Shown: in pieces, positions 1 to 14,800 of the stretch
How positions within the stretch are numbered: the stretch's first letter is position 1
How the letters are laid out: each line of letters opens with the position of its first letter
Source of the DNA: Elusimicrobia bacterium HGW-Elusimicrobia-2
GTDB lineage: Bacteria > CG03
Assembly: GCA_002841685.1 (NCBI GenBank)
Contig: PHAM01000048.1
Location: 1-18,429 of the forward strand
Direction of reading: 5' to 3'
DNA: 18,429 nucleotides
Notes under the pieces: generated by a model
Told to the model about the DNA's origin: nothing
Databases searched by the model: none
What the model saw: the letters and a program-made list of their open reading frames with translations, nothing else
Made by a program: the position numbers and the translations under genes

Positions 1-36
1 GGAAATAATTTTTGGGTATTATAAAATTTGAAAAAA

Positions 37-228
37 ATGTTAGATTATAGTTGGAAGCCGTCGGTTGCTGAAAAATTTGTTTGTGCAACAGGCTCTATTA
101 ATGATGCGCCTGAGAAACTTAAAGATGCCGCGGAAGAAATAGAAAAATTCCTTATAGGCCCGATTGAAGCAATGGTAAAGACCGGGGATTTTAAAGACGA
201 GTGGGTGGCGCCGGGGCCTTGGAAATGA
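37..228 (+). CDS. small hypothetical protein upstream of miaB
   Basis: A short ORF of 63 codons from ATG 37; a TTG at 28 would add three residues, and an in-frame TAA at 22-24 closes the frame upstream. I do not recognise the family. The product is soluble-looking, with an amphipathic, charged central part (DAPEKLKDAAEEIEKF) that is probably helical, and a Trp/Pro-rich tail (WVAPGPWK). No Shine-Dalgarno sequence is seen before either start. The first bases of the window are A+T-rich with a TATAAA-like stretch near 19-24 that could be part of a promoter, but too little upstream sequence is present to judge. Its stop codon overlaps the ATG of miaB as ATGA (225-228), which argues that it is genuinely translated and coupled to miaB. 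Confidence 0.5.
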   Translation: MLDYSWKPSVAEKFVCATGSINDAPEKLKDAAEEIEKFLIGPIEAMVKTGDFKDEWVAPGPWK

Positions 229-1496
229 AAAAAGCATGTCCTGAGCGGAGTCGAAGGGTCTATATCAGGACTTTCGGATGTCAGATGAACGCCGCCGATA
301 GCTCCGTTATGAGGGGCATTTTGGAAAACAGGTCTTTTGAATTCAGCGAAAATCCTGAAGAAGCGGATCTGATAATCTTCAATTCCTGCAGCATAAGGGA
401 GCACGCGGAAGACAGGATGTTCTCAAATCTCGGACTGGCCATGAAAAAAAATCCCAAGGCCGCTTTTATTCTCGCCGGCTGCACGGCCAAGAGGCACGGC
501 GCAAAGCTTTTTAAGAGGTTTCCGCATCTTGGCGCGGTGGTAGCGCCGTCGGAGCTTTTTAGTATCGGCGAAACCGCGGAAAAGGTTTTATCCGGTGTGG
601 CGGGGATCGAGGCGCTTGAGGGCGGCTACGGCTTTGTCCCCCGGCACGGCGGAGTGAGCGAATTCGTTGTCATACAGACGGGATGCGATAATTACTGCTC
701 GTATTGCGTGGTGCCTTTTTTAAGGGCCGCCGAGAGATACCGTCCGGCGGAGGATATCCTCAGAGAGGTCCGCTGTCTTGCCGCTTCCGGCACAAAGGAG
801 ATCGTTTTCCTGGGGCAGAATGTTAATTCCTACAGGGATGAAAAGACAGGCGGGGATTTTACCGATCTTCTCGCGCGCGCCGCGGAGATCGACGGCATAC
901 TCAGAATAAGATTTTTGACTTCGCACCCCAAAGATATTTCCGCAAAGCTCATAGATGAGTTCGCGCGGAATCCGCGCCTTGCGAGACATCTTCATCTTCC
1001 CGTCCAGAGCGGCTCCGATTCAGTGCTCAGGGCGATGAACAGAAAATACACTTCAGCGGATTATCTGGGGATCGTGGAGAAGCTCCGCGAAAGCGCGAAG
1101 GATGTGGCTCTTACAACGGATGTGATCGTCGGATTCCCCGGCGAGACGGACAGCGATTTCGCCGACACGCTCGCTCTTATAAGAAAGGCGGATTTTGACG
1201 GCGTGTATGTTTTTAAGTACAGCCCGAGAGAGGGGACCGCGTCATTCAGGATGGAAGATGATGTGACGGAGGAAGTAAAAAAAGAAAGACTCGCTGCGGG
1301 CCTTGCGCTCGCCAAAGAGCTGGCTCTAAAAAAAAGAGAGGCGTATATCGGGCAAAAAGCGGAAACGCTTTTTGAGAATGACGACGTTGGACATTCCTCA
1401 CAAAATTATTTAGTATTTAAAAAAGGCGCAAAGGCGGGCGATTTCGGACAGGTCCTGATAAAGGCCGTGTCCGGTTTCCGTCTTATGGCGGAATAA
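225..1496 (+). CDS. miaB: tRNA-2-methylthio-N6-dimethylallyladenosine synthase MiaB
   Basis: Radical-SAM methylthiotransferase that adds a 2-methylthio group to (i6)A37 of tRNAs reading U-starting codons. Numbering from ATG 225 (423 aa): the N-terminal UPF0004 domain supplies auxiliary-cluster cysteines C19 (FGCQMN, the MiaB signature, unlike RimO's GCPKN), C55 (NSCSIR) and C86 (AGCTAK). The radical-SAM core has CxxxCxxC at C154/C158/C161, then SHP, LPVQSGSD and DVIVGFPGE blocks. A short TRAM-like C-terminus follows. ATG 225 is preferred over GTG 201 because it overlaps the upstream stop as ATGA and gives the usual MKK start. Odd: residues 4-11 (ACPERSRR) are encoded by a short dispersed repeat inserted between MKK and VYIRTFGCQMN. 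The motif after the SAM cysteines, VVPFLRAAERYRP, is less canonical than the usual VPYTRGRERSRP type. Confidence 0.93.
   Translation: MKKACPERSRRVYIRTFGCQMNAADSSVMRGILENRSFEFSENPEEADLIIFNSCSIREHAEDRMFSNLGLAMKKNPKAAFILAGCTAKRHGAKLFKRFPHLGAVVAPSELFSIGETAEKVLSGVAGIEALEGGYGFVPRHGGVSEFVVIQTGCDNYCSYCVVPFLRAAERYRPAEDILREVRCLAASGTKEIVFLGQNVNSYRDEKTGGDFTDLLARAAEIDGILRIRFLTSHPKDISAKLIDEFARNPRLARHLHLPVQSGSDSVLRAMNRKYTSADYLGIVEKLRESAKDVALTTDVIVGFPGETDSDFADTLALIRKADFDGVYVFKYSPREGTASFRMEDDVTEEVKKERLAAGLALAKELALKKREAYIGQKAETLFENDDVGHSSQNYLVFKKGAKAGDFGQVLIKAVSGFRLMAE
234..257 (+). repeat. short dispersed repeat inserted in frame in miaB
   Basis: The core tgtcctgagcggagtcgaag (from 237) is a short sequence I recognise as recurring, in many copies and on both strands, in environmental bacterial genomes. 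In this frame it reads PERSRR. Here it adds exactly eight codons between the MKK start and the conserved VYIRTFGCQMN of MiaB. No second copy was seen in this window. Confidence 0.6.
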
Positions 1497-1515
1497 ATTA
1501 GAGTTATCTGTTTTT

Positions 1516-1540
1516 CCTGCAGGATATAAGTTCCTGTAGG
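1516..1540. repeat. stem-loop after miaB
   Basis: Arms cctgcagga (1516-1524) and tcctgtagg (1532-1540) pair over nine positions with one G-U wobble around a 7-nt loop, 19 nt past the miaB stop codon. It is preceded, not followed, by a T run, so it is not a standard intrinsic terminator for + strand transcription. It may be a structured dispersed repeat or an mRNA-stabilising hairpin. Confidence 0.4.
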
Positions 1541-1581
1541 GCGGGCGGTTTGCCGGAGCGTGTGAAAATTAAGAATAAGAA

Positions 1582-1639
1582 AATTAAGGACGTCCCCCTT
1601 TTTCAGAATATGAAAAGAATTAAGGACATCCCCTTTTTC
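1582..1639 (+). repeat. paired direct repeat in the miaB-lapA gap
   Basis: Two imperfect copies of an element aattaaggacRtcccc followed by a T run, at 1582-1602 and 1618-1638, are offset by 36 nt. The core aattaaggacgtcccc resembles a repeat often met in environmental genomes. The second copy runs straight into the ribosome-binding site of the next gene. The rest of the 154-bp gap (1497-1650) holds the stem-loop at 1516-1540 and no ORF I can support. Confidence 0.5.
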
Positions 1640-1641
1640 CT

Positions 1642-1647
1642 GGAGGG
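1642..1647 (+). promoter_or_regulatory. ribosome binding site of the LapA-like gene
   Basis: GGAGGG lies three bases before ATG 1651. It is a strong Shine-Dalgarno sequence with a short spacer and fixes that start. Confidence 0.6.
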
Positions 1648-1650
1648 AAA

Positions 1651-1959
1651 ATGACACAGATAAAACTGCTTTTCGCGATGGCTGTTCTGGTGGCGCTGAC
1701 GATTATTACGGTTTATGTGCCGAAAGACCTTGCGACCATCCCGCCGATGGTCATCCTTGTTTCCGCACTTTTTATAGGAGCCGCTTTTTCCGCGGTTCTC
1801 GGCATAGCCGAAAACCTGAGGCTCAGCGGAGAAATAAAGAAACTGAAAAAAGAAGCGGATAAATCATCGGAAAAGATCAAAGACCTGCAACTCAAGATCA
1901 GGGCGCTGGAAGAAGAAACGGAAAGCTCTCCGGGCATGGAAGAAGACCTGGGGATCTGA
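1651..1959 (+). CDS. LapA-domain (DUF1049-like) membrane protein
   Basis: A 102-residue inner-membrane protein. Two hydrophobic segments (about residues 5-24 and 31-54) are separated by a short polar turn (PKDLATIPP). A strongly charged heptad-like coiled coil follows (about 57-93, KKLKKEADKSSEKIKDLQLKIRALEEE), then an acidic tail. This layout matches the lipopolysaccharide assembly protein A domain family, in which a two-helix hairpin precedes a cytoplasmic coiled coil. In enterobacteria LapA works with LapB in LPS assembly and LpxC turnover; that role cannot be assumed here because no LapB is visible. The call rests on topology and pattern rather than on a unique motif. The gene lies 12 nt upstream of mutS, probably in the same transcript. 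Confidence 0.7.
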   Translation: MTQIKLLFAMAVLVALTIITVYVPKDLATIPPMVILVSALFIGAAFSAVLGIAENLRLSGEIKKLKKEADKSSEKIKDLQLKIRALEEETESSPGMEEDLGI

Positions 1960-1971
1960 AAAAACTTTTCT

Positions 1972-3891
1972 ATGGCCGGCACTACCCCCGTCATGGGGCA
2001 GTATGAAAAAATAAAGAGAAGTTATCCCGACTGCATAATATTTTTCAGGCTCGGGGATTTTTACGAGATGTTCGGTGAAGACGCCCGCGAGGCGTCAAAG
2101 ATACTGCAGATAGTCCTCACATCCCGCGGCGGCCGTCCCATGTGCGGTATCCCGTATCACGCCGCGGACAATTACCTTCTCAAAATCATATCAGCCGGCA
2201 GAAAGGTCGCCATTGTGGAGCAGCTCGAAGAAGCGTCAAAAGGCGGAAAAATAGTGGACAGGGGCGTGGTGAGAGTCGTCACTCCCGGCACACTCACGGA
2301 GGAGGTGCTTTCGCCTGCGGTGAATAATTTTATCCTCGCAGTTTCCCCGCAAAAAGAATTTTTCGGATGCGTTCTGGCGGATATCAGCACCGGCGAGATG
2401 CTAGCGCGCAAGGTGAGGGAAAAAGATCTCCCCGGTTTTCTCAAAAGCGTGGACAGGATAACGGAAGTCGTCTATCCCGAGGGCACGGGCCTGGAAAAAT
2501 ATTTCGCGCCGTGCGTTTTCCGCTCGCCGATGGATAAGAGTTTTTTCAGCGAGTACGAGGGAAGGGAGAAACTCAAGGATCTTTTTAAGGTCAAGTCGCT
2601 GGCCGGCTTTGATATGGAGGAAGGGATACTGCTTTCCGCCGCCGCGGCTCTTTTAAGTTATCTGGCCGGGACAAAACTTGATATTTTATCGTCAATAAAA
2701 AGTATTTCAAGGATACGGCGGGGGGATAACCTCTTCATGGATGAGTCCACCATACGCAACCTTGAACTGGTTGAGGATCTTACGAGCTCATCCTCCGGAG
2801 CCACGCTTTTCGGCGCTCTGAACAGGACTTTCACAAGCGCCGGCGCCAGGCTTCTGAAGAAAAGGATTCTCAGCCCTTCGCGGAGAGTGGAAGTCATCAG
2901 GCAGCGCCAGAAAGAGCTGGCGCTTTTTATGGATGACCCCGGCCTTAAAGACGCTGTGGGCGCGGCCCTCTCATCGGTCAAGGACAGCGAAAGGTCTTCC
3001 AGCCGCATAGCCATGACAGGCGGGCGGCTCGCGGGTTTCTTGAATATATTGAGCGCTTTGAAGGCCGCCCGGATCATCGAGAAAAAACTGAAGGGCGGTG
3101 TTTTCGGCGCTTTGAATTTCCTGCCGGGTTTGATGGAAACGCTGGATAAGGCGCTCGCGCGCGATGAGAACGGCCAGCCGGTCATAGACCCTTCCTTTGA
3201 CCCGCGGATGGAGCATTGCCGCGCGAAGCTCGCTATTCTGGAGAAATGGATAGGTGATTTTGAGGACGCCGAGCGCCGGAGGCTGGGAATACCCAAGCTC
3301 AAAGTTTCGTTCAACTCGGTTTTCGGCTATTACATCGATGTTACAAGGGTGAACCTGGGAAAAGTGCCGGAAAATTACATAAGAAAGCAGACGCTCGTCA
3401 ATTCGGAGCGCTTTATCACGCATGAGCTGAAAGAAAAGGAAACCGAAATACTGATGTTGAAAGAAGAGCTCGGCGGAATAGAAAAAGAGGCAAGGAAGGT
3501 CTTGTCGGACAGCGTCAGGCGGGAGCTCGGCGCGCTGAAAGAGCTTTCGACTAAGCTCGCCGGGATAGATGTGGCCAGGTCTTTCGCCGTAACCGCGGCC
3601 GCGGGGAATTATGTCATTCCCGAAGTCAATGACGGCGATGAGATCATCATAAAGGATTCGCGCCATCCCGTTGTTGAGAAAATCCACGCCGAAACTTTTA
3701 CGCCCAACGATATAAATCTTGACAGAAAAAACAATCAGGTCATGCTCATAACGGGGCCCAACATGGCGGGGAAATCAACCTATATCAGGCAGACGGCTCT
3801 TTGCGTTATAATGGCTCAGGCCGGCGGGGCAATTCCCGCCCAGAATCGGCGTTGCCGACAGGGTTTTCACAAGGATAGGCGCGGGAGATAA
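1972..3891 (+). CDS. mutS: DNA mismatch repair protein MutS, 5' part (frameshifted)
   Basis: MutS recognises mispaired and looped bases and recruits MutL. From ATG 1972 the mismatch-binding domain starts with TPVMGQYEKIK and carries the Phe-x-Glu wedge (F30-Y31-E32 in GDFYEMF). Connector, core and clamp domains follow, and the ATPase begins with Walker A GPNMAGKST (3754-3780). After A623 (codon 3838-3840, AGGAIPA) the frame is lost: 16 unrelated residues follow to the stop at 3889-3891. The expected sequence ARIGVADRVFTRIGAGDNLVQGAST is present from 3842 in the next frame. Family alignments have about three residues between IPA and RIG; only one base is left, so about 8 bp appear missing. The product as read would lack Walker B and the dimer interface. 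No Shine-Dalgarno sequence is obvious before the start. Confidence 0.9.
   Translation: MAGTTPVMGQYEKIKRSYPDCIIFFRLGDFYEMFGEDAREASKILQIVLTSRGGRPMCGIPYHAADNYLLKIISAGRKVAIVEQLEEASKGGKIVDRGVVRVVTPGTLTEEVLSPAVNNFILAVSPQKEFFGCVLADISTGEMLARKVREKDLPGFLKSVDRITEVVYPEGTGLEKYFAPCVFRSPMDKSFFSEYEGREKLKDLFKVKSLAGFDMEEGILLSAAAALLSYLAGTKLDILSSIKSISRIRRGDNLFMDESTIRNLELVEDLTSSSSGATLFGALNRTFTSAGARLLKKRILSPSRRVEVIRQRQKELALFMDDPGLKDAVGAALSSVKDSERSSSRIAMTGGRLAGFLNILSALKAARIIEKKLKGGVFGALNFLPGLMETLDKALARDENGQPVIDPSFDPRMEHCRAKLAILEKWIGDFEDAERRRLGIPKLKVSFNSVFGYYIDVTRVNLGKVPENYIRKQTLVNSERFITHELKEKETEILMLKEELGGIEKEARKVLSDSVRRELGALKELSTKLAGIDVARSFAVTAAAGNYVIPEVNDGDEIIIKDSRHPVVEKIHAETFTPNDINLDRKNNQVMLITGPNMAGKSTYIRQTALCVIMAQAGGAIPAQNRRCRQGFHKDRRGR
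3823..3840. repeat. GC hairpin at the mutS frameshift
   Basis: Perfect 6-bp stem ggcggg / cccgcc (3823-3828 with 3835-3840) with a 6-nt loop. Its 3' foot coincides exactly with the last in-frame codon before the mutS frameshift. Such hairpins favour slippage deletion in vivo and read errors in vitro. Confidence 0.5.
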
Positions 3892-3916
3892 TCTTGTCCA
3901 GGGCGCCTCAACCTTC

Positions 3917-4507
3917 ATGGTTGAGATGAACGAGGCGGCGAACATACTGAACAATTCAACGGAAAAATCGCTCATCATAATAGATGAGCTGGGCCGGGGC
4001 ACATCAACTTATGACGGAATATCCATAGCGTGGTCATGCCTTGAATACATAGCCGGCGATCCCCGCCATTGCCGCTGTCTTTTCGCCACCCATTTTTTTG
4101 AGCTGATAGAGCTGGAAGAAAAATTCCCCAACATAAAGAATTTCAACGCGGCGGTCAAAGAATGGCAGGGCAAACTCCACTTCCTCCACAAGATAGAGAA
4201 AGGCCCGGCGGACCGGTCTTATGGTATCCATGTGGCGGAACTGGCGGGAATCCCGCCTTCCGCGGTTGCCAGAGCCAGGGAAATAATGAAAGAGCTCGAG
4301 AACAAGCATATCAGAACGGATAAGACCTCGGCCGCTCCTCAGCTTTCTTTTTTTGACGATGGCAGATATGAAGGGATAATTAAAAAGATCAAAAACGCCG
4401 ATACGGATAATATGAAGCCCGTGGCGGCGCTGACTTTGCTGGATGAGATGAAAACTGAACTCGGCCTTCCGGAGAAAGACGGGCACGGCGGGAAGACGGA
4501 AAAATGA
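3917..4507 (+). pseudogene. mutS: MutS, 3' part (ATPase C-terminal half, other frame)
   Basis: Continuation of mutS in the shifted frame; MutS homology already begins at 3842 (RIGVADRVFTRIGAGDNL), and ATG 3917 is only the first internal Met. It contains the ABC signature region (STFMVEMNEAANIL), Walker B with the D-loop (LIIIDELGRGTSTYDG), the H-loop (ATHFFEL) and the helix-turn-helix dimerisation tail (YGIHVAELAGIPPSAVARAREIM). Joined to the 5' part the protein would be about 844 residues, normal for MutS. Translated alone from 3917 it lacks Walker A and cannot be a working ATPase. The sequence after the break is well conserved, so either the frameshift is very recent or it is a sequencing or assembly error. 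The stop overlaps the next ATG (ATGA, 4504-4507). Confidence 0.85.
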
Positions 4508-5595
4508 AAAAAAATAAAAAACTAACTGAAAAGCATCCTGTAAAAATAAAGAGTATTACAACGGCGGGGAACCTTGTTTCAGACATTCATAAAATGATAG
4601 GTGAAACACGTTCATCTGTTGCCGCTACAGTAAATATAGGCCTTACAATGCTTTACTGGAAAATAGGTAAACGGGTTAATGATGAAATCCTTGTAAATAA
4701 GAGAGCCGGTTATGGAGAGGAAATTCTTGCGACACTGTCGCAAGAATTGATTATTGAGCATGGGAGCAGTTTTTCTGAGAAGAATCTTAGGCGAATGGTT
4801 CAATTTTCCGAAGTTTTTTCAGATGAGAAGATTGTCGTATCACTGATACGACAATTGAGTTGGACGCATTTTATAGCGCTTATCCCTCTCAAAAAACCTC
4901 TTGAAAGAGAATTTTATGCTGAAATGTGCAGGGTTGAAAGGTGGAGTGTGAGGACTTTGCGGAAAAAGATAGATTCAATGCTGTTTGAGCGGACAGCTCT
5001 GTCTAAAAAGCCCGAAAAACTGGCGCGTATGGAACTTTCTAAATTGAGAGAAGAGGATAAACTTACGCCCGATCTTGTGTTCAGGGATCCGTATTTTCTG
5101 GATTTCTTAGGCCTTAAAGGAAGTTATCAGGAAAAAGATCTTGAATCTGCTATTCTGCGTGAAATAGAAGCTTTCATAATGGAATTGGGTGCGGGATTTT
5201 CATTTGTCGCCCGCCAGAAACGCATTACGATTGACAATGATGATTTTTATATTGACCTTCTATTTTATCACCGTAAACTGAAAAGTCTGGTTGTTATTGA
5301 TCTTAAACTGGGGAAATTCAAAGCGGCTTATAAAGGGCAGATGGAGCTTTATTTAAGATGGCTCGAAAAATATGAAACAGAACCCGGCGAGCAGCCGCCA
5401 TTGGGACTTATCCTCTGCGCGGAGGGGAATAACGGGCAAGTAGAGCTTTTGCAATTAGATAAATCCGGCATTCATGTTGCCGAGTATTTAACTGTGCTGC
5501 CGCCTAAAAAATTACTGCAAGAGAAACTGCACAAGGCAATTGGTTTGGCGAAACGGCAGATTGAGCAGAGGAATACGAATAAGGAAAAGAAATGA
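4504..5595 (+). CDS. DUF1016/YhcG-type PDDEXK nuclease family protein
   Basis: A 363-residue protein of the YhcG family: an N-terminal DUF1016_N helical domain (about 20-165) and a C-terminal PDDEXK nuclease domain (about 185-350). Visible family blocks are MLYWKIGKRV, the twin LATLSQEL / VVSLIRQLSW motifs, FRDPYFLDFLGL, and the nuclease core with D251 (FYIDLLFYH) and D266-x-K268 (VVIDLKLG), followed by the GQMELYLRW helix. These are the expected catalytic Asp...Asp-x-Lys residues, so the nuclease fold looks intact. The cellular role of the family is not settled; members are often found near restriction-modification and mobile DNA. The gene is clearly A+T-richer than mutS and the redox genes, suggesting acquisition, yet it is joined by ATGA overlaps on both sides (4504-4507 and 5592-5595). 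Two perfect palindromes lie inside it. Confidence 0.9.
   Translation: MKKNKKLTEKHPVKIKSITTAGNLVSDIHKMIGETRSSVAATVNIGLTMLYWKIGKRVNDEILVNKRAGYGEEILATLSQELIIEHGSSFSEKNLRRMVQFSEVFSDEKIVVSLIRQLSWTHFIALIPLKKPLEREFYAEMCRVERWSVRTLRKKIDSMLFERTALSKKPEKLARMELSKLREEDKLTPDLVFRDPYFLDFLGLKGSYQEKDLESAILREIEAFIMELGAGFSFVARQKRITIDNDDFYIDLLFYHRKLKSLVVIDLKLGKFKAAYKGQMELYLRWLEKYETEPGEQPPLGLILCAEGNNGQVELLQLDKSGIHVAEYLTVLPPKKLLQEKLHKAIGLAKRQIEQRNTNKEKK
4722..4748. repeat. 27-nt perfect palindrome within the nuclease gene
   Basis: Arms aattcttgcgaca (4722-4734) and tgtcgcaagaatt (4736-4748) are exact reverse complements around a single c at 4735. It encodes the first ATLSQEL motif of the DUF1016 domain. Confidence 0.75.
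4831..4855. repeat. 25-nt perfect palindrome within the nuclease gene
   Basis: Arms attgtcgtatca (4831-4842) and tgatacgacaat (4844-4855) are exact reverse complements around a single c at 4843. It encodes the second motif (IVVSLIRQL), the counterpart of the first palindrome's motif. Confidence 0.75.
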
Positions 5596-5735
5596 AAAAC
5601 AGTAAGGCACTTCTGCGGATTGTTTTAATCGTGCTGTTCGCGCTGTTTGTCGCCGAGGGGGTGAGACAACGCCGTTCCGCAGTGACGGGCGGAATAGCCG
5701 GATATGTCTGTCTCGAGTGCATGGGTTTCAAATAA
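5592..5735 (+). CDS. small CxxC membrane protein (CD1871A family-like)
   Basis: A 47-residue protein starting at ATG 5592, which overlaps the nuclease stop (ATGA, 5592-5595), and ending at TAA 5733-5735. It has one hydrophobic helix (about residues 7-21, LLRIVLIVLFALFVA), a basic stretch (RQRR) and a C-terminal YVCLECMGFK with a CxxC pair (C40, C43). Size, single helix and terminal CLEC motif resemble the CD1871A family of CxxC proteins, which I recall from clostridia, often next to polytopic 4Fe-4S proteins as here. The CxxC could be redox-active or bind metal; that is inference. Membrane topology is ambiguous because there are positive charges on both sides of the helix. The next gene starts 4 nt later, so the two are almost certainly co-translated. 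Confidence 0.7.
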   Translation: MKNSKALLRIVLIVLFALFVAEGVRQRRSAVTGGIAGYVCLECMGFK

Positions 5736-5739
5736 GCCG

Positions 5740-6582
5740 ATGAAAAGAAAAAAGATCAGCGGCCATAAAAGAAGAATTGTCCAGATCCTTTCGCTTTTCC
5801 TGATAAACGGGAATTTTAAAACTTTTTTGACCGGCGGGCTTTACAAAGGAAAGCTTAAAAATATCTGTATTCCTGTTTTGAACTGCCATTCCTGCCCCTT
5901 TGCCCTTACGGCCTGTCCCGTAGGAATGATCCAGCAGTTTCTCGCCCTGGGCCTGAGGCAGGGTTTTACGGGATTTCTCTATATTATCGGTTTGATAGGC
6001 CTTCCCGCGATGTTTCTCGGGCGTTTTTTCTGCGGGTGGTTGTGCCCTTTCGGTTTTTTTCAGGAGATGATCTTTGTCAGAAAATTCAAACTGTCTTTTC
6101 CGCCATGGCTGAAATATCTTAAATACCTTTTTCTTTTCGGATTTGTGCTGGTGTTCCCCGTGATTTTTACAAATAAATTCGGCGTAGTCGCCCCCGCATT
6201 CTGTAAATACATCTGCCCTGCGGGCACGGCTGAGGCCGGTTTCTGGGGTCTGTGGGCGGGCTACGGCGGATTCGGTTTTGTCCTGGCGGGTAAAATGGCC
6301 ATCCTCGCGGCAGTCATATTTTTTTCGGTCAGGATATGGCGTTTTTTCTGCAGGGCCTGTCCCCTGGGGCTGATACTCGGGTTTTTTAATAAAATCAGTC
6401 TTCTTCAACTTCGCCTGAATGACAGATGCGACAATTGCGGGGTCTGCGGGAGAATCTGTCCGATGAATATAGCCGTTCCGGTTGAGCTGAGTTCAAAGGA
6501 CTGTATAAGATGCGGAAAATGTGTTGACGCCTGCCCGAAGAAAGCGCTGTCTCTGTCATTTAAAGACAGCGGAAAACGATGA
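5740..6582 (+). CDS. polytopic membrane 4Fe-4S binding protein (NapH/CcoG-like)
   Basis: A 280-residue integral membrane iron-sulfur protein. Cysteine motifs in order: C43, C49, C52 and C59 (CHSCPFALTACP), C98-x3-C102P (FCGWLCPFG), C155-x3-C159P (CKYICPAG), C204-x2-C207P (CRACPLG), then a C-terminal double ferredoxin with CxxCxxCxxxCP twice (C230-C240 and C255-C265). About five or six hydrophobic segments alternate with these motifs. This is the NapH/YccM/RdxA-like architecture that moves electrons between quinol or ferredoxin and periplasmic partners. I chose ATG 5740 over ATG 5704 because 5704 lies inside the upstream small gene, whereas 5740 follows its stop by 4 nt and gives a typical basic N-terminus (MKRKK). 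No catalytic partner beyond the CxxC protein is visible. The stop overlaps the next start (ATGA, 6579-6582). Confidence 0.88.
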   Translation: MKRKKISGHKRRIVQILSLFLINGNFKTFLTGGLYKGKLKNICIPVLNCHSCPFALTACPVGMIQQFLALGLRQGFTGFLYIIGLIGLPAMFLGRFFCGWLCPFGFFQEMIFVRKFKLSFPPWLKYLKYLFLFGFVLVFPVIFTNKFGVVAPAFCKYICPAGTAEAGFWGLWAGYGGFGFVLAGKMAILAAVIFFSVRIWRFFCRACPLGLILGFFNKISLLQLRLNDRCDNCGVCGRICPMNIAVPVELSSKDCIRCGKCVDACPKKALSLSFKDSGKR

Positions 6583-7418
6583 TAGCCTTTTCGACTTTGA
6601 TGGCCGAGAAAGGCGGCGGATACCGCCAGCTTCTGCCTTTGCGGGTGGCAGGGCTTGAAAATCTGGAACTGACCTGGGGCGCGGGCGTGGATATAGATGA
6701 CAGGGAATCTTTTCTAAAGGCGGGCAAAGAACTGAAAAAGGCGGGGATAAAAACGGTCTCGGCTCATGCCCCGCTTCACACTTCCCCGGGAAGGGATGTG
6801 GATATTTCCTCTCCCGACAATTGGGAAAGAAAATTCGCCATAAGGGAAACGGAAAAAAGCATACTGGCTTTGTCCCTTATGGCCGGCTTAGGCGCCGCAA
6901 CGGTTATTCACATAGGCCGGGCGGTGGAAAATGCGAACCGCAAAAAACATCTCACGGCGGCTGTTGAATCTCTAAAAGAGATATGTAAATTTTCGGCGGA
7001 GTTTAATGCGGAGCTATGCCTTGAAAACACGCTGCCCGGGCATCTGGGCTGTTTTCTGGACGAGCTTCTTGAGGTCAGGGAAAAATCCGGATTTCCGGGC
7101 TTAAAATTCTGTCTGGATACGGGGCATTATAATCTTGCCGAACCCAACCCTGATATGCTCTCTGAAATGGCGCCGGATATAACAGAACTTCATATTCATG
7201 ATAACAATGGTGACAAGGACAGTCATCTCGTCCCCGGCCGGGGATGTATTAACTGGAAAGATTTATTGGCTTTGATAGCAATAAGTCACGAAATGTCGCA
7301 TCCGCCGCGGCGGAGTCAACCTCTGGCACCACGTCTGAATGTGTTTGAGATCATGCGGGGAGGAGCTCCCGAAATCAGGGAATGCCTGGGCTTTGCCGCG
7401 GAACACGGAATAGGGTGA
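6579..7418 (+). CDS. xylose isomerase-like TIM-barrel protein (AP endonuclease 2 family)
   Basis: A 279-residue sugar-phosphate isomerase/epimerase-type TIM barrel. Conserved metal-site positions are seen: H63 and H67 (HAPLH), H111 (VIHIGRA), E149 (CLENTLPG), D180 and H183 (CLDTGHYN), H205/H207/D208 (LHIHDNNG), H216 (DSHLVPGRG) and E257 (VFEIM). The set is that of the endonuclease IV/xylose isomerase superfamily; whether the substrate is DNA or a sugar cannot be told from the sequence. It is coupled to the Fe-S gene by ATGA at 6579. Odd: between WKDLLALI and the final strand NVFEIM about 20 residues (ISHEMSHPPRRSQPLAPRL) replace the usual short loop and look like translated repeat DNA, so the last catalytic strand is preserved but displaced. 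The stop codon lies inside a 15-bp tandem repeat. Confidence 0.8.
   Translation: MIAFSTLMAEKGGGYRQLLPLRVAGLENLELTWGAGVDIDDRESFLKAGKELKKAGIKTVSAHAPLHTSPGRDVDISSPDNWERKFAIRETEKSILALSLMAGLGAATVIHIGRAVENANRKKHLTAAVESLKEICKFSAEFNAELCLENTLPGHLGCFLDELLEVREKSGFPGLKFCLDTGHYNLAEPNPDMLSEMAPDITELHIHDNNGDKDSHLVPGRGCINWKDLLALIAISHEMSHPPRRSQPLAPRLNVFEIMRGGAPEIRECLGFAAEHGIG
7275..7340. repeat. probable repeat element inserted in the TIM-barrel gene
   Basis: About 66 bp that keep the frame but replace a short barrel loop with basic/Pro-rich sequence. It contains the self-complementary ccgccgcggcgg at 7302-7313. Position, frame preservation and composition suggest a dispersed palindromic element; no second copy occurs in the window, so the edges are approximate. 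Confidence 0.45.
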
Positions 7419-7460
7419 ATATCCGCCCAGTGAATATCCGCCCAGTGAATATCCGCCCAT
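7416..7460 (+). repeat. 3 x 15-bp tandem repeat
   Basis: Three head-to-tail copies of tgaatatccgcccag: 7416-7430, 7431-7445 and 7446-7460, the last with a final t instead of g. The first copy supplies the stop codon of the TIM-barrel gene; the altered last base is the first T of a TTGACT -35 box. Confidence 0.9.
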
Positions 7461-7488
7461 TGACTATTGACGGCTTTCAGTGTATTAT
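7460..7488 (+). promoter_or_regulatory. sigma70-type promoter
   Basis: TTGACT (7460-7465), a 17-nt spacer, then TATTAT (7483-7488): five of six matches at each hexamer and ideal spacing. It marks a new transcription unit starting after the TIM-barrel gene. The expected start point (about 7494-7498) is at or next to ATG 7498, so the mRNA would be leaderless or nearly so. Confidence 0.6.
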
Positions 7489-7497
7489 ATTAGTGCG

Positions 7498-8007
7498 ATG
7501 AAAAAGTTTTTATTTAGCTTCTGCGCGGCGTTTTCGCTGTGCGCCGTAGCCGTAAATCCGGCGCATGCGGATCTCACACCCGAACAGGTGAGAAAGATCT
7601 ATGCATCCAGCGTCTTTGAGGCGCGGGATACCTACAACAACAGCAGGCCTATGAGATTCGCTGAATCTTCGGCCATTAACGGATTTTTCTCGACGCTGTT
7701 TGCCGAAAAAGTGAATAAAGTATCATCCTTCAAAATGACTTTTCAGCCGACAATGAAAGGCTGGACGGCCCTGGTTTTTCAGGCCATTTACAGCAGGGAT
7801 TCGGGCCAGACTCTGCCGGCAAAACTCACGGCGCCCTATAAGATACTCGCCGCGAATGCCGTGTCCGCCATCCACGAACTGCGTTTTGACACGGCGTATC
7901 CCGTCAATACGGTTGCCGCCGGATTTATGTCGGCGCTGTTTTTGTTCGCTATTTCAATTTTACCTATACACAAAATAAAATTCAGGCTTTTTATTCAGAG
8001 AGAGTAA
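7498..8007 (+). CDS. secreted or membrane-anchored hypothetical protein
   Basis: A 169-residue protein I do not recognise. ATG 7498 gives a clean signal peptide (MKKFLFSFCAAFSLCAVAVNPAHA, probable cleavage AHA-D after residue 24); the in-frame ATG at 7480 would overlap the promoter and lengthen the n-region. The mature part opens with DLTPEQVRKIYASSVFEARDTYNNSR and has no cysteines or clear catalytic motif. It ends in a hydrophobic stretch (about 141-156, FMSALFLFAISILPIH) and a basic tail (KIKFRLFIQRE), so it may be anchored at the C-terminus. That tail might alternatively come from a late frameshift. No Shine-Dalgarno sequence precedes the start, consistent with the leaderless promoter layout. 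The 85-bp gap to the next gene holds only a weak 5-bp stem (8021-8025 with 8036-8040). Confidence 0.65.
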   Translation: MKKFLFSFCAAFSLCAVAVNPAHADLTPEQVRKIYASSVFEARDTYNNSRPMRFAESSAINGFFSTLFAEKVNKVSSFKMTFQPTMKGWTALVFQAIYSRDSGQTLPAKLTAPYKILAANAVSAIHELRFDTAYPVNTVAAGFMSALFLFAISILPIHKIKFRLFIQRE

Positions 8008-8092
8008 AATTTAATCCCCGACGGTGGATACTTAAACCGTACAGCAAAACATTCGGCTTTTAGCTCGAATTTTTTTCTATGCGGTTTATAAT

Positions 8093-8830
8093 ATGAATAA
8101 ACATAAAGAAACAAATTGCCACGCGCGTAAGGCGCTGTTCGCCGACGGCAGCCGCTTTCTGCCCCTTGGCGCTCTGGCTGTCATTGCCGGCTTTTTGTGT
8201 TTCGCTCCGGCATTCGCAGAGGCGAGGTTTTTGTTTTTCGGCAAAGATAAAAGTCCGCGGGAGATTAAAGCGGATCAGGCGGTGAAAAAACTTAAGGGTT
8301 CAAATTCCGCCGAAAGAGGGCGGGCCGCGGATGAGCTGATGCAGATGGATAAAAAAAGAGGCGTTAGCGAAATTAAAACAGCCCTCAAAAAAGAGAAAGA
8401 CGATCAGGCGAAGAAAAATATGCTTAACGCTCTGGGGAATTCCGGCGATGCTGAAGCTATTCCGGATGTGAAAGAGCATCTGTCTTCAGGCGATAGGGGC
8501 GTGAGGCTTTATGCCGCCTGCGCCTTGGCCGCGCTCGGTGATGATTCGGGGCTGGGAGAACTTGAAACCGTTATTACGGATGCGGGCGAAAGCCGCGGCC
8601 GCAGGTCGTTTGCCATAAGGTCGCTGGGCGGAATAAAAACAGACGCGGCTGTCGCCGTTTTAGAGAATGTCCTGAAAGACGGCGATTTCGCCATACGGCT
8701 TCAGGCGGTGTCTTCTTTGGGGAAAATCGGCACATCAAGGGCGCTGAACACGGTTAAGGGGATGGCGGGCGACAAAGATGAGAGGGTGCGGGATGCCGCG
8801 GGAAATATTCTGATGAGGACGGAAAAATGA
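8093..8830 (+). CDS. secreted HEAT-repeat protein
   Basis: A 245-residue exported protein. A long basic n-region and hydrophobic core lead to a likely signal peptidase site after AFA (residue 42). A charged linker follows, then about five HEAT/PBS-lyase-like helical repeats (about 65-245). Recurrent repeat units are ALKKEKDDQAKKNMLNALGN, VRLYAACALAALGD, SRGRRSFAIRSLGG, AIRLQAVSSLGKIG and VRDAAGNILM. HEAT solenoids are protein-binding scaffolds; no enzymatic residues are expected. It directly precedes the giant Ig-like gene and overlaps it by ATGA (8827-8830), so a role in assembly, export or anchoring of that protein is a reasonable guess, not shown. The start is uncertain: TATAAT at 8087-8092 abuts ATG 8093, and no ribosome-binding site is seen. 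Confidence 0.82.
   Translation: MNKHKETNCHARKALFADGSRFLPLGALAVIAGFLCFAPAFAEARFLFFGKDKSPREIKADQAVKKLKGSNSAERGRAADELMQMDKKRGVSEIKTALKKEKDDQAKKNMLNALGNSGDAEAIPDVKEHLSSGDRGVRLYAACALAALGDDSGLGELETVITDAGESRGRRSFAIRSLGGIKTDAAVAVLENVLKDGDFAIRLQAVSSLGKIGTSRALNTVKGMAGDKDERVRDAAGNILMRTEK
8815..8818 (+). promoter_or_regulatory. ribosome binding site of the giant gene
   Basis: GAGG lies 8 nt before ATG 8827, inside the end of the HEAT gene. Together with the ATGA overlap it fixes the start of the giant reading frame. Confidence 0.55.
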
Positions 8831-11800
8831 TTTCCGGAAATATTAGGAAATTTAGAAAATCACTTTCCACCGTCCCCTTTTTGTTCGGAAAACCCGTAGT
8901 TGCCTCCGCTTTTCTTCTTGTTTTTATGGCCGTGAGGGTATTCGCCATTGCCACTTTTTATTTTAAGGACGCCGCGGCTCCCAGTGACGCACCTTCAACC
9001 ATTTACTGTACGGATCCTGAATCCGGCTACACTTATGCTGCTTACGGCACAAATGTCAGGACAATGGGAACCAACCCGGGAGGCGCGGAATTAACATGGA
9101 CGCATACTGCGTTTGGGGCCGGTACCGGAGCTAATAATATTAACTTTGGAGGTGATATTTTTGTTTCTCCGGCGCTCAAAGCTCAGACGCTGAATTCGGG
9201 AACATGGTCGGCTCAGTTCAGGATGTATGCCAACGGTGACAAAGACAATGACGATTACGCGAGAATATGTGTTTATGTGTGGAGAAATAATTCTGTGGCG
9301 GCGGTGATTGTGTCCTCTTACACACAGACGACAACACATATTGTCGGCACGGTTTTGAAAACAATAAGTTTCACAGGGCGACCCGGAGCGGCCTGCAGTA
9401 TACTGGATAACGATTATCTTGTCGTTGAGGTCCTCGCCAGAACCATGACTAACGCTCCTGCCAACTCGGCGCCGGATTATATTTATGTAGGCAGAGATAC
9501 GACAGACAGTTATCTCACCGCTCCGCAGGATCTGCAGATTTTTACAGCGCCGAATCTTACGTCCGTTACTCCGGATGTAAAGGGTCAGGGCTGTTCATTG
9601 GAACAGATTAACTTTACGGGAACTGATCTTCAAAGTGACGATATTCTATCTTTTATGAGGGTGGATGTGGCCGAAATAGATACAATAGGGCAATCTGCGA
9701 AAACAATATGGACGACCAGCGGCACAGTTAAAATATCAATTCCGGATACCGTGGAAACAAGCGCCGCCGGCGGAAGTGTTGTTCTGAGAATCGCCAGACT
9801 TTCCAATACAAATCTTTTCAGCGAAAAAGCTTTTACAATAAGTTCTTATCCTCTTTCGGCCGTGACCAGTCCGGCGGATTCTTCTTTGAAAAACTCCGTT
9901 GCTTCTATAGGGGGTACGGCTAATGCCCGGGGCGGGACGATAGCTAATATCTGGATAGCCATAGAAAAGATAATGGCGGGAGATAACGAATTCTGGGATG
10001 GTTCGCAGTGGACAACCACTCCGGGGGCCAATCAGTGGCTGGCCGTCACGCCGGATACTTCATGGTCATATGATTCGTCCGGCGTGACATGGGATTCTGC
10101 TAATTCTCTTTATCAGCTTAAATCAAAAGCCAAAAATTCATACGGCGGCATTGAAAGCGTGGGGAGCGGCATACAGTTCCGTTTTGATGGACAGCCGCCT
10201 GTCGTCACTTCAACCGTGCCGGTCAACAATCTCTATTCGGCACAAGCCTTCAATTTTTCGGGAACTTCTTCGGACAATTCCTCGTCCTATGGTTATGGTG
10301 TTAAAACCTCAGGCGGCATTACCATGAGAATTTACGCTGTCAATGTTTCCAAATACTGGCATGGTGATGTCAATCAATGGGTAGAAGGCGAATACTGGTG
10401 CGTTGCGACGGGCTCTACCTCGTGGAATTATTCAATTGCCACGTCTTCGTGGAACGAAAACCAGCATTATCAGACAATCGTCAGAGCCGAGGATCAGGGG
10501 GGTAATTTTTCAACAGTGTGGTCAACGCGGAATTTCACATATGACATTTATGCCGCTTCTCCCGAAAAACCGGATTCCAGAGTGACGGATCCGGTAGATG
10601 GGGAATACCGCGGTTCCCAATGGATAGAGAATACGGGTATCTCCGGTACGGCCTCTGACAACACCCGTGGCGGCCTTGACATAGGCAATGACTGGGGGAT
10701 ACAGTACGCCATACGCAGGCAGAGCGACGGTTTTTGGTACGATATAGGTATTCCCGGATTCAAAGACAACAGCGGCAATCCTTTCTGGAATGCCGTAAAC
10801 GCGGTAAATATGGCGGAAACTTCAGCAACCGACTGGAGTGAGACTCTCACGGCTGATTGGGTGCGGACTCTTTCCGCGACGGAGTTTGATGACGGGGTAT
10901 CGTATGATGTTATAAGCAGATGCCGCGATATAACGGTCAGCGCATACGGAGGCCCGAATTACGAGATAGTTTATGAGACTTCTACATTCATTATGGATAA
11001 GGGCGTGCCGAGCTCTGCTATTTTGTCGCCTGTACTGTCACATTATCAGGATGTGAATACGATATCGGGGACGGCCGCGGACACTTTGTCCGATGTTAAG
11101 GAAACGGGCGGGGTTAATATAAGGGTTAGTTATACTAATGGAACAAGCACATATTACCTATTGCCCACTAACCTCTGGGACAGCGTTCCGAATGTTTCGC
11201 ACTGGCTTGTTTGCTCGGGTTCGCATACATGGTCATATAATTCTGCCGCGGTAGCCTGGACTGATACGGTTGATTATAAAGTTGAGGTTAGAGCGGAAGA
11301 TAAAGCGCAGAACAAACAGACAACTTTTCCGAATAACACATTTATGTGCGATGTGTCAGCGCCGGCTTCCGCTTTGACCAATCCGCAGACAGGGCAGCTG
11401 TACCGAAGGGGTTTCCCGACTTTGATTCAGGGCACTGCGGTCGACGTGTCCTCAACGGTCGCGAAAGTTTATCTTAAAATAAAAGAAAACTCGGCTGATA
11501 TTTATTGGTCGGATAATTTAAATACATGGGTGGGTTATTCAACAATTTGCGCCTGCTCGTACTCCGCGCCTAATTGGACATATGATTCAGACGCCAAAGG
11601 GGTGGGTTGGGTGAACGGAACAGAATACAGCCTGATACCTTATGCGAGGGATTTCCCGGGGAACGCGGGCGACGGAACATCACGGAATTTTACATGGGAT
11701 GTGAAAATTCCCACATCAGCGGTGACAACGCCCGCTAACGCGTCTTTTTTGAACAGCTTACTGACAATTGTGGGCACGGGCGCCGATTCCACGGGTCTTA

Positions 11801-14800
11801 TAAATAAGGTATATGTGGGCATCAAGGATACGGTGAATTTGAAATGGTGGGATGGAACTTTGGTTCAGTGGGGCGCCGAGGAGTGGAACACAGCATGGGC
11901 CGGCTCCGAACCGGCGCCGATTTGGGATTATGATATGCCTCATTCAACGGCTTACTGGACAAATAACCACAAATACATCATTTACACGAAAGCTGTTGAT
12001 GAATCTGTCAAAAATATCAGCGGCCAATGGGTGGGGAACACCGAAGACGCGCTGAACAACGGCACCAGTTCATATTTTACGTTTGACGGAAGCGCGCCCG
12101 AATCAAAAATAGACAATGTGACGGACAGTTCCTATATAAAAAGCCTTACTGATATAACGGGGACGGCTCTTGATTTGAACGGACAGTTGACGCCGGCTGG
12201 CTCCATAGGGCAGATCAGCAGTGTTAAGATACATATTTATGATGCTAACGCAGGGGAATACTGGGGGGGAGCCCTGGGCTGGCAGACGGGCGGCCTCGTT
12301 CCTTCCGACGCACAATACAGAACAGTTTCTTATACGGCTTATCATGCCGGCGGTTCTTCGGGAACATTTGTTTATAATTCCGGTGTTGAAAGTTTTCCTT
12401 CATGGACCCCGGGAAACCAATATAGACTTATAACCAAGGCGCAAGACGGCGCTTCCAACAAGGAAGTGACAGTTTCCACGGTATCGTTTTATTACGACGT
12501 TTATGTAGTCGGCCCGCCTGAATATCCCGATTCTTCTATCACATATCCGGCGAATAACTGGAATACCAAAACAACGACGACGACTATCAGCGGTTCAGCC
12601 GCTGACAATGTTGCGCTGAACTGGGTTTATGTTAAAATAATGCGTTTAACGCAGGCGGGAGCGACCGATTACTGGCAGGGCGCCACATGGGCGGGAACAG
12701 AAAAATGGCTCAACTATAATCAGGGAACTTTAAGCTCATGGGGAAGAACAGTTCCTTCGGATTCTTCTTTTTGGACAGAAAACCGTCTCTATAAAATTAT
12801 TTCAAGAGCTGAGGACAAGGCGCTGAACTGGGAAATTAATTTCACAACTATAACGGTTGTTTATGACTTGCTCATTCCGACCGCTGCTGTGACATATCCC
12901 GCAAACAGCGGTTATGTTTCGTCGGTCGGGAAAATAACTGGGACTTCGGAGGATTCGTGGCCCGGGCAGACGGGGAATGTCTATCTGAAATTGCAGAGGC
13001 AGGATAATTCCAAATACTGGAAGGGTTCGTCTTCCTGGACGGCGGTGGAGACATGGCTTGCCCCAACTTTGTCCAGCGGCGGAACTTGGTGGCAATTGAC
13101 TGACAATCCGTCATGGGAAACGACGAATTATGAGGCTTATGCTAAGTGCAAAGACAAAGCGGATAACTGGCAGACTGTTTATTCCACCGTTGCATTTATA
13201 GGTGATTTCACGGCGCCGTCTTCAACTGTTACAACGCCAGCCAACGGTTCCTCGCAGGATTCTGTCGCAGTGATTTCGGGCGCGGCCTCCGACGAAAATG
13301 AACTTGATTATGTGAAAATTGACATAAAAAGAAATACGGACAATTTCAGGTGGGACGAAGACAATGAGCAATGGGTGGATACATCAAACACTCCTTTCTG
13401 GCTTGATTGCGCCGGATCGGGCGGCTGGTCGTTTACCATTACTTATCAGACTTCATGCTGGTCAAACGGCCTTTCCTATACGATAACCCCGAAAGCCTTT
13501 GACAAGGCGGGGAACTCTTCGGTGGGGACAGCCTCAATATTTAATTTTGTCTATCCCGCACAGAATCCTTTCAAGGTGTCGTATCCCTCTGTGATGACGG
13601 CCGGAGTAGCCGGAAATTTTACGGTGACCGCATGGAATTATGATTACAGCGCCACCGCCACAGGCTACGGGGGAGATGTTTTCTTTGATTCTTCCGATAA
13701 TTACATGCTTGTTGACGGGAATGCTCACGACGGCTATTCTTACACGTATGTTCCAGGCGGCGGCGGAGACAATGGTGAACACATATTTTCCGTTACAATG
13801 AAAACCGCAGGTACAAATCTCTGGTGGAAAGTTTGGGATCCGGACACATACGGATATGTTATTTCCTCACAGGTTGTTATAAACAAAGTTAATCCCGGCG
13901 CTCTCAAATATTTCCAGGTGACCGTTAACAAGACCGGCGACCCGAATGATCCCGCCGGCGTGACGGCGGGCGTGCTGAGGAGCGTCACCGTCAGCGCCTA
14001 TGACGCGCAGAAAGATTACAATGATGCATCCCGTACGGGCGGCAATCCTAAGACGAATTATAACGGAATTGTTCATTTCACTTCTTCCGACGGAAACGCT
14101 TCCATCCCCGCGGATTATCAGTTTACTTCGGGTTCGGGAGAAGATAACGGCGTCCACACATGGTTGGTCGGCTCATCAACGGGCGTTAAGTTTAAAACAA
14201 TGAATCTGAACGGCGCGTGGCTGAGGACAAACGATACGGATCTGACAACTTCAACGGGAGCGGCCGCGGGAATTATTGTTTATCCTAATTCTTACGCTTC
14301 GGGAAGTTTTGTCGTGTCTGCAGCCACGGGGCCCTGGACGGCCGGCGTGGGAAGAGCCACAATGACCGTGGAATCTGTTGACGCTTACGGCAACAGGTGC
14401 TCAAGCGGAGTGTATAATTACAACGGCACGGCAAAATTCACATCTTCCGACGGAAATGTTTATTTTGGGAACACAAAATCAACGACTGTTTACACATTCA
14501 CAACCGGCGCTTCGGGCGACAACGGATACCATGTGTTTAACGCCACCGCGCAGTTTAGAACAAGCGGGACACAGTGGATAAAAGCAAAGGACGAAAGTAA
14601 CACCCAGGAGGGTTTGAAAACGGGTATTGTTGTTTACCCCGGCGCAGCGACGCATTTTGCCGTAACAGCGTCCACGAATGTTACGGCAGGAGCTTCTTTT
14701 GATGTTACGGTTGAGGCCCTTGACCAGTTTAACAACAGAGACACAAACTATTATTCCGCCGACTCCGAATTTGATTTCAGCGCTCTCAACAGCGACAACA

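Follow-up and report, generated by a model that had tools for sequence, protein, structure and literature searches.

Palindromes inside DUF1016 nuclease genes covary with the DNA-binding domain that they partly encode and may be its cognate sites

The palindromic parS and NBS sites of ParB and Noc proteins are among the closest described parallels to the sequences discussed here, and a parS site is also found inside the B. subtilis spo0J (parB) gene. The reading of the half-site by ParB has been traced to individual residues, in a way that R173 of the recognition helix sets base 1 and G201 of helix alpha 6 sets base 6, with R204 contacting the DNA (PMC7383237). If positions in the parS and NBS sequences are counted from the dyad, base 1 can be derived to be the seventh and base 6 the second. 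A different kind of precedent is given by I-TevI, a homing endonuclease that regulates itself through an operator at its gene, to which it binds (PMC2988022). Finally, perfect or near-perfect palindromes within protein-coding genes have been described in nematomorph mitochondria (PMC6649704) and as Rickettsia palindromic elements (RPE; PMC4316617), in both cases in many unrelated genes and with no known link to a DNA-binding protein.

The DUF1016/YhcG family (COG4804; PF17761 plus PF06250), whose nuclease domain was predicted in 2005 (PMC1189080) and which PADLOC holds as the candidate defence gene PDC-S02, has traits in common with all of these systems. Here, a DUF1016 gene is analysed in an 18,429-nucleotide stretch of Elusimicrobia bacterium HGW-Elusimicrobia-2 (contig PHAM01000048.1, positions 1 to 18,429; hereafter, the window). 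Like ParB/Noc and parS/NBS, it combines a predicted DNA-binding fold of that kind with palindromic sites; unlike in them, no ParB CTP-binding domain was found in the window protein and a PD-(D/E)XK nuclease occupies the C-terminal end instead, the specificities within DUF1016 are very diverse, and the site occurs only within the gene and along its borders. The mode proposed below, a nuclease binding its own gene, resembles that of I-TevI and other self-repressing homing endonucleases. However, the I-TevI operator overlaps the promoter upstream of the ORF, whereas the DUF1016 site forms part of the sequence that codes for the DNA-binding domain and changes along with the protein; it is intact there, and homing, in which an allele lacking the gene is cleaved and then receives a copy of it, would be no more than a possibility in this case. 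As for the nematomorph and RPE palindromes, those of DUF1016 differ from them in their fixed position, phase and length and in that their bases change with the encoded protein. Both intragenic binding sites and ParB-like domains have been described before. In the open-licence literature, nothing decisive was found on intragenic parS sites and operators, nor any report linking DUF1016 with ParB or describing DUF1016 palindromes; a family-wide, coevolving cognate site in the coding sequence of the binding-domain segment was not found there either, which does not establish priority.

Palindromes in the window gene and across the family

The window gene (4504..5595, + strand, from the ORF list) encodes 363 amino acids and is a member of DUF1016/YhcG, its product scoring 152.7 bits against PF17761 (DUF1016_N; E 8e-45) and 168 bits against PF06250 (YhcG_C; E 2e-49), for curated cut-offs of 32.8 and 32.5. 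Its start ATG shares bases with the stop codon that ends the mutS fragment upstream (ATGA); mutS itself is spread over two ORFs (1972-3891 and 3917-4507), the break at window 3840-3920 being a frameshift or a sequencing error. Elsewhere in the window, TGTCCTGAGCGGAGTCGAAG (237-256), in the 5' part of a radical SAM ORF (UPF0004; 201-1496), codes for CPERSRR, has three similar copies elsewhere in the genome and resembles a short interspersed repeat within a gene, and the ORF at 8827-18429, of more than 3200 amino acids, runs off the contig end with many similar repeated segments, suggestive of a large, repetitive protein of the surface or secreted type.

Two palindromes, neither of them assigned to a strand, lie within the DUF1016 gene. 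Site 1 (4722..4748) is a perfect 13-1-13 palindrome of 27 nt, AATTCTTGCGACA-C-TGTCGCAAGAATT, coding for I74-L82 (ILATLSQEL), and site 2 (4831..4855) is a perfect 12-1-12 palindrome of 25 nt, ATTGTCGTATCA-C-TGATACGACAAT, coding for I110-L118 (IVVSLIRQL). In both, the central C opens a CTG (Leu) codon; the centres are 108 bp apart, and the two are the longest perfect palindromes anywhere in the window. A preliminary description of this DNA had reported these C-centred palindromes of 27 and 25 nt in a nuclease gene, and had considered them very unlikely by chance; the first statement was confirmed exactly and the second was borne out by synonymous codon shuffling of the gene, in which one of 20,000 randomised versions had a 12-bp arm and none had an arm of 13 bp, ruling out chance and codon bias as their origin. 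It had further suggested comparing the homologues with codon shuffling, and had named homologous genes with the protein motif and no excess of palindromy as the outcome that would speak against it.

This comparison was carried out on about 150 genes from relatives, 80 other prokaryotic genomes and viral contigs, and its result was positive: a site with at least 11 of 13 pairs is present in 122 of 146 homologous genes, compared with 5.9 expected from synonymous shuffles. When only the fixed homologous positions are considered, the same threshold is reached at site 2 in 90/149 genes (0.9 expected) and at site 1 in 26/149 (0.1 expected), the opposite of a motif without palindromy. Palindromy is therefore family-wide and goes beyond codon effects, even though around 40% of the homologues have no strong palindrome at the fixed site 2, partly due to insertions there. 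Sites with at least 12 pairs have their centre in codon phase 0 in 76 of 77 cases (146 homologous genes), and 13-bp arms occur at 179 per Mb in DUF1016 ORFs vs 5 per Mb in flanking DNA. Giving each position as i, the number of bases from the palindrome centre, with the base of the left arm on the coding strand, the conserved bases are AATT at either end, T at i8 and a central CA-N-TG; positions i3-i7 and i9 are variable, and the cores differ from gene to gene with the palindromy kept. In the 17 genes with two sites, the cores are more alike within a gene than between genes (0.61 vs 0.42; permutation p 0.0004).

The genome of the window (G000, 1.78 Mb) contains at least five DUF1016 genes or fragments (contigs C17, C19, C22, C55 and C88), each with a palindrome, the cores being all different apart from types shared with sister genomes. 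The pattern AATTST-N15-ASAATT is found in this genome at six places, of which five are perfect palindromes with different cores (L001, L003, L004, L007/L031 and the window), all five in DUF1016 genes. The 21-mer cores of site 1 and site 2 were found at no other place in G000 at up to three mismatches, further matches to them in related genomes are DUF1016 genes or one decayed copy, and the exact site 2 core appears in two of 2.9 million viral contigs, both times within DUF1016 genes. With the cores confined in this way in G000, the related genomes and the viral contigs, no target was found outside the gene family. Copies of a gene's own core (up to four mismatches) do occur in the flanks for 7 of 154 cores, most of them within about 60 bp of the ORF, compared with 9 of 1523 for cores of other loci. 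Such copies just before or after the ORF are seen at L081:2387-2411, L085:1562, L086:3525-3555, L087:3536-3570, L090:3524-3554 and L138:2416.

The yhcG gene of E. coli K-12 (L166:5828-6995) contains in-frame palindromes at three places, spaced by 39 nt, with one more just past the stop codon; all four have CAGAC...GTCTG. In other E. coli alleles, the 3' copy shows a paired arm change, with TCTGCAGACA/TGTCTGCAGA in some and TCTCCAGACA/TGTCTGGAGA in others. Breakpoints at the palindromes, suspected at first in E. coli, were in the records examined mostly IS insertions and deletions, and do not count as evidence.

The encoded protein and its covariation with the site

The C-terminal part of the window protein is a PD-(D/E)XK nuclease domain (residues 192-342; 5077..5529, + strand; Pfam PF06250). 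Its putative active site comprises D251 (5254-5256, +) and D266-L-K268 (5299-5307, +), of which D251, L267 and K268 are invariant in 59 homologues, and residues 205-327 match nuclease folds. The protein thereby presents the catalytic D and the D/E-x-K motif in the core fold that define the PD-(D/E)XK superfamily.

For the N-terminal part, an AlphaFold model built from the 59 homologues, whose confident parts are residues 31-160 and the larger share of the nuclease domain, together with VIA-align and a weak PF17762 match, points to a ParB/Noc-like helix-turn-helix domain (residues 43-166; 4630..5001, +), with a predicted recognition helix at residues 92-104 (4777..4815, +) and, N-terminal of the helix-turn-helix, one long helix. 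In the same model, the palindrome-coded residues 74-82 fall in helix 69-86, and 110-118 in helix 108-115. For residues 43-166, the structural matches are to entries of Noc, ParB and Spo0J, including the protein-DNA complexes 6y93, 7ol9 and 4umk, with VIA-align Z scores of 6.5-8.0 over 96-103 residues (rmsd 2.7-3.6 A), although Z values up to 8 may reflect a common helical arrangement. An independent comparison by sequence leads in the same direction, HTH_ParB (PF17762) being the top non-self Pfam family for this domain, weakly (16 of 59 members, best E 8e-5). Foldseek on its own found nothing at E 0.001 or better, and phmmer and profile searches of PDB sequences gave no relative. The Pfam scan of the protein returned DUF1016_N and YhcG_C only, without the ParB CTP-binding domain (PF02195), and since the full ParB architecture is not present, the protein is likened to ParB and not classed as one. 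The N-terminal domain thus resembles the DNA-binding domain of ParB/Noc by predicted fold, with a weak likeness in sequence as well.

The bases of site 2 were tested against all variable protein columns outside the palindrome-coded stretches. The top covarying pairs were V149-i3, I124-i4, T121-i3, K93-i7 and R97-i6, which place the candidate specificity residues at K93 (4780-4782, +) and R97 (4792-4794, +), at T121 (4864-4866, +) and I124 (4873-4875, +) in the SWTH helix (segment 4864..4875), and at V149 (4948..4950, +). In the case of residue 121, Ser goes with A at i3 in 44 genes (C 12, G 2, T 1) and Thr with G in 31 (T 17, C 1), and Lys or Arg at 149 goes with C at i3 in 19/19. At i4, Arg at 124 is accompanied by C in 26/28 (34/40 for Arg or Lys) and Val by G in 19/20; at i7, Lys at 93 by C in 41/47 and Arg by G in 31/33; and at i6, His at 97 by T in 28/29 and Tyr by C in 14/15. 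In nearest-neighbour pairs matched on the nuclease domain, residue and base change together (Fisher p 1.6e-8 for 121, 7.6e-6 for 124, 4.5e-5 for 93 and 1e-3 for 97). The palindrome core bases therefore covary with five residues (93, 97, 121, 124 and 149) outside the palindrome-coded stretch.

The relationship holds under several controls. With whole clusters held out, the own palindrome of a gene has a mean percentile of 0.87 among all cores (0.92 averaged over clusters), a value obtained with code columns chosen on the same data set, compared with 0.51 (maximum 0.60) for control sets of five random nuclease or other N-domain columns. When the choice of columns was nested as well, 121, 149, 124, 93 and 96 were picked in 6/6 folds and 97 in 5/6, the percentile being 0.82 with very unequal groups (75 of 117 genes in one of them); the held-out base accuracy was 0.73 (i3), 0.65 (i4), 0.50 (i6) and 0.75 (i7), vs 0.20-0.27 for the commonest base, a range that is 0.25-0.27 for i3, i4 and i7, while in this nested test i5 was weakly predicted and i9 failed. 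Neutral co-inheritance of one recombining cassette was discarded, as the non-contact residues of the cassette do not predict the core (percentile 0.51, vs 0.88 for the contact residues), and the contact pairs remain significant in pairs matched on non-contact cassette residues. Phylogenetically independent pairs on the nuclease-domain tree were in agreement for 121/i3 (8:0, p 0.008), 93/i7 (10.8:0, p 0.001) and 124/i4 (6.2:0.1, p 0.03); on this tree, mismatched residue-base controls were not significant, and Tyr at 97 with i6 was unsupported by the independent pairs. The code trained on site 2 can also be applied to the site 1 palindromes (35 genes), which usually fit their own protein (percentile 0.83). 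In E. coli K-12, YhcG has S121, V124 and V149 (read by eye), predicting A at i3 and G at i4, with which all four copies agree; i7 differs among the copies despite the single protein.

By analogy, the five covarying residues would correspond to the DNA-contact regions of ParB. Its recognition-helix residue 173, here 93, reads an outer base, here i7, and residue 201 reads an inner one; the residues 201 and 204 of helix alpha 6 match 121 and 124, which pair with i3 and i4, if ParB G-H-x-R (201-204) is aligned, as we infer, with T121-H-F-I124. Hence, the covariation recovers the layout of ParB-parS without having used it.

Readings of the palindromes

Since the covariation persists when families are held out, against controls from the same cassette and in phylogenetically independent pairs, the palindrome within the gene is most likely a parS-like site cognate to the protein that the gene encodes. 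We consider it quite probable, from sequence data, that the palindromes are protein-binding sites for the gene's own ParB/Noc-like domain, that is, that the cognate site is written into the gene. The protein, presumably a dimeric nuclease, would read the palindrome of about 27 bp through its N-terminal domain, one monomer per half-site, and the cognate palindrome would lie within the stretch coding for helices of that same domain. Each lineage would have its own specificity, which would make the core bases differ between genes, and palindromy would be kept because both half-sites must match the same protein. Once abundant, the protein would bind inside its own ORF and lower its own expression. 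If binding does take place, the chances are about even that the site serves the negative autoregulation of a dangerous nuclease, a use that is favoured over self-cleavage or homing. A site within the ORF would travel with the gene whatever the promoter upstream, and the window gene, starting within the mutS stop, has little upstream room for an operator of its own.

In the window gene, the two sites seem to tell different stories. Site 2 (T at i3, A at i4, G at i6, C at i7) agrees with K93, R97, T121, I124 and V149 (LLR +3.2, roughly the top 5% of cores), which suggests that it is the cognate binding site of the encoded protein. In contrast, site 1 does not fit the specificity of its own protein (LLR -5.1) and fits proteins with S93, R97 and S121, such as that of L018, from a genome of the same genus, which has the identical 27-mer at its own site 1. 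The DNA identity between the window and L018 is high at site 1, 47-67% from the recognition helix to site 2 and 80-97% just beyond. On the simplest reading, site 1 would then probably be a relic of an earlier specificity, left after a swap of the specificity cassette, although selection on parts of the gene could yield a similar profile. Consequently, of the single function first assumed for both sites, only site 2 keeps its share by fitting the protein, and the proposal of a palindromic-element footprint persists in the weak sense of such a relic and does not fit otherwise.

Other explanations account for part of these observations. The structure itself might be selected, as an mRNA hairpin or as a DNA cruciform or single-strand hairpin, the sequence being free as long as it pairs; the wide variation of the cores with complementary arms and the frequent difference between site 1 and site 2 within a gene agree with this, as does the relation of the nuclease domain to Holliday junction resolvases (PMC1189080), with Hjc among the fold matches. 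Nevertheless, the mismatched pairs at i2-i12 of 133 distinct sites comprise 19 sense G.U vs 26 A.C, with no excess (21 vs 21 in a hand count for i2-12), and since a selected hairpin should tolerate G.U and not A.C, this speaks against an RNA helix. Mismatches are moreover frequent at the centre, and pure structure does not explain that five protein residues predict the core bases in held-out groups. The hairpins or cruciforms proposed in the preliminary description are thus not supported as the cause, base identity following the protein, and a selected structure is very unlikely; its suggestion of a recognition site of the encoded nuclease has fared better, in the sense of binding, the core bases covarying with DNA-contact residues of the gene's own ParB-like domain. 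A process without function, in which arm-to-arm conversion or template switching perfects a chance quasi-palindrome, has been discussed for the nematomorph coding palindromes (PMC6649704), and the paired change among the E. coli 3'-UTR alleles, TCTGCAGACA to TCTCCAGACA with a matching change in the other arm, is what it would leave. However, such a process gives no reason for the core bases to follow DNA-contact residues coded outside the palindrome, for additional copies of a gene's own core to lie next to it, or for RhuM (see below) to show a like arrangement, so that neutral upkeep alone is extremely improbable.

More weight, although still on the unlikely side, is to be given to a site that is bound in order to be cut, by a nuclease of a self-targeting or homing-like kind whose substrates would be further copies of its gene or alleles related to it; as part of this reading, cutting would drive gene conversion, the exchange of specificity cassettes or the exclusion of incoming elements of the same allele. 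The conserved putative PD-(D/E)XK catalytic residues, the mosaic appearance of the E. coli and window alleles over the segment of the recognition helix and the palindrome, and the status as PDC-S02 in PADLOC are consistent with it. Yet the intact site in an active gene would also be cut unless cleavage were blocked or conditional, RhuM has the same site logic with no nuclease domain recognised in the present analysis, and I-TevI exemplifies a nuclease able to bind a site without cutting it (PMC2988022). That a mobile palindrome has been taken into the coding sequence, as with the Rickettsia palindromic elements, is barely credible. In its favour, E. coli yhcG and L022 contain in-frame copies in tandem, and at several loci copies lie just beyond the gene, but a Rickettsia-type element is one element in many unrelated genes, whereas 5/5 perfect palindromes of this architecture in G000 lie in DUF1016 genes, with no copies outside such genes in that genome; furthermore, the position and the codon phase are fixed (76/77), the length does not vary and the core changes with the protein.

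RhuM genes and the meaning of a possible binding site within its own gene

RhuM, unrelated to DUF1016, shows in its sequences what looks like the same palindrome-protein pattern. Palindromes with variable cores and at least 11 of 12 pairs are found in 51 of 78 RhuM genes, compared with 1.7 expected, at one homologous in-frame position and phase. The core bases covary with residues 54-61, apparently the recognition helix of a helix-turn-helix; for instance, Arg or Lys at residue 61 is accompanied by C in 36/36 and Glu by G in 8/8. The RhuM palindrome loci are L042:4340-4364, L110:33-57, L197-L199 and L207-L283; two RhuM genes lying in the flanks had first drawn attention to the family.

Taken together, it is fairly likely that there is a class of horizontally mobile prokaryotic genes, with the DUF1016 nucleases, RhuM and perhaps others as members, whose coding sequence for a DNA-binding domain doubles as the cognate operator or target of that same domain, the site and the protein specificity evolving as one transferable cassette. 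Since the site and the protein change together in evolution, the gene would carry its own target, probably to control itself; and with both specificities locked in one cassette, the DNA site would, if this is true, constrain and partly dictate the protein sequence. For DUF1016, a large family with E. coli yhcG among its members and with no function known, this would provide a DNA-binding mode and a predicted site for each gene, and would make the function of YhcG directly testable. In addition, thousands of natural protein-site pairs, each contained in one gene, would give a ParB-like recognition code without experiment. In two unrelated families, the same DNA would then be selected both as coding sequence and as the target of the protein it encodes.
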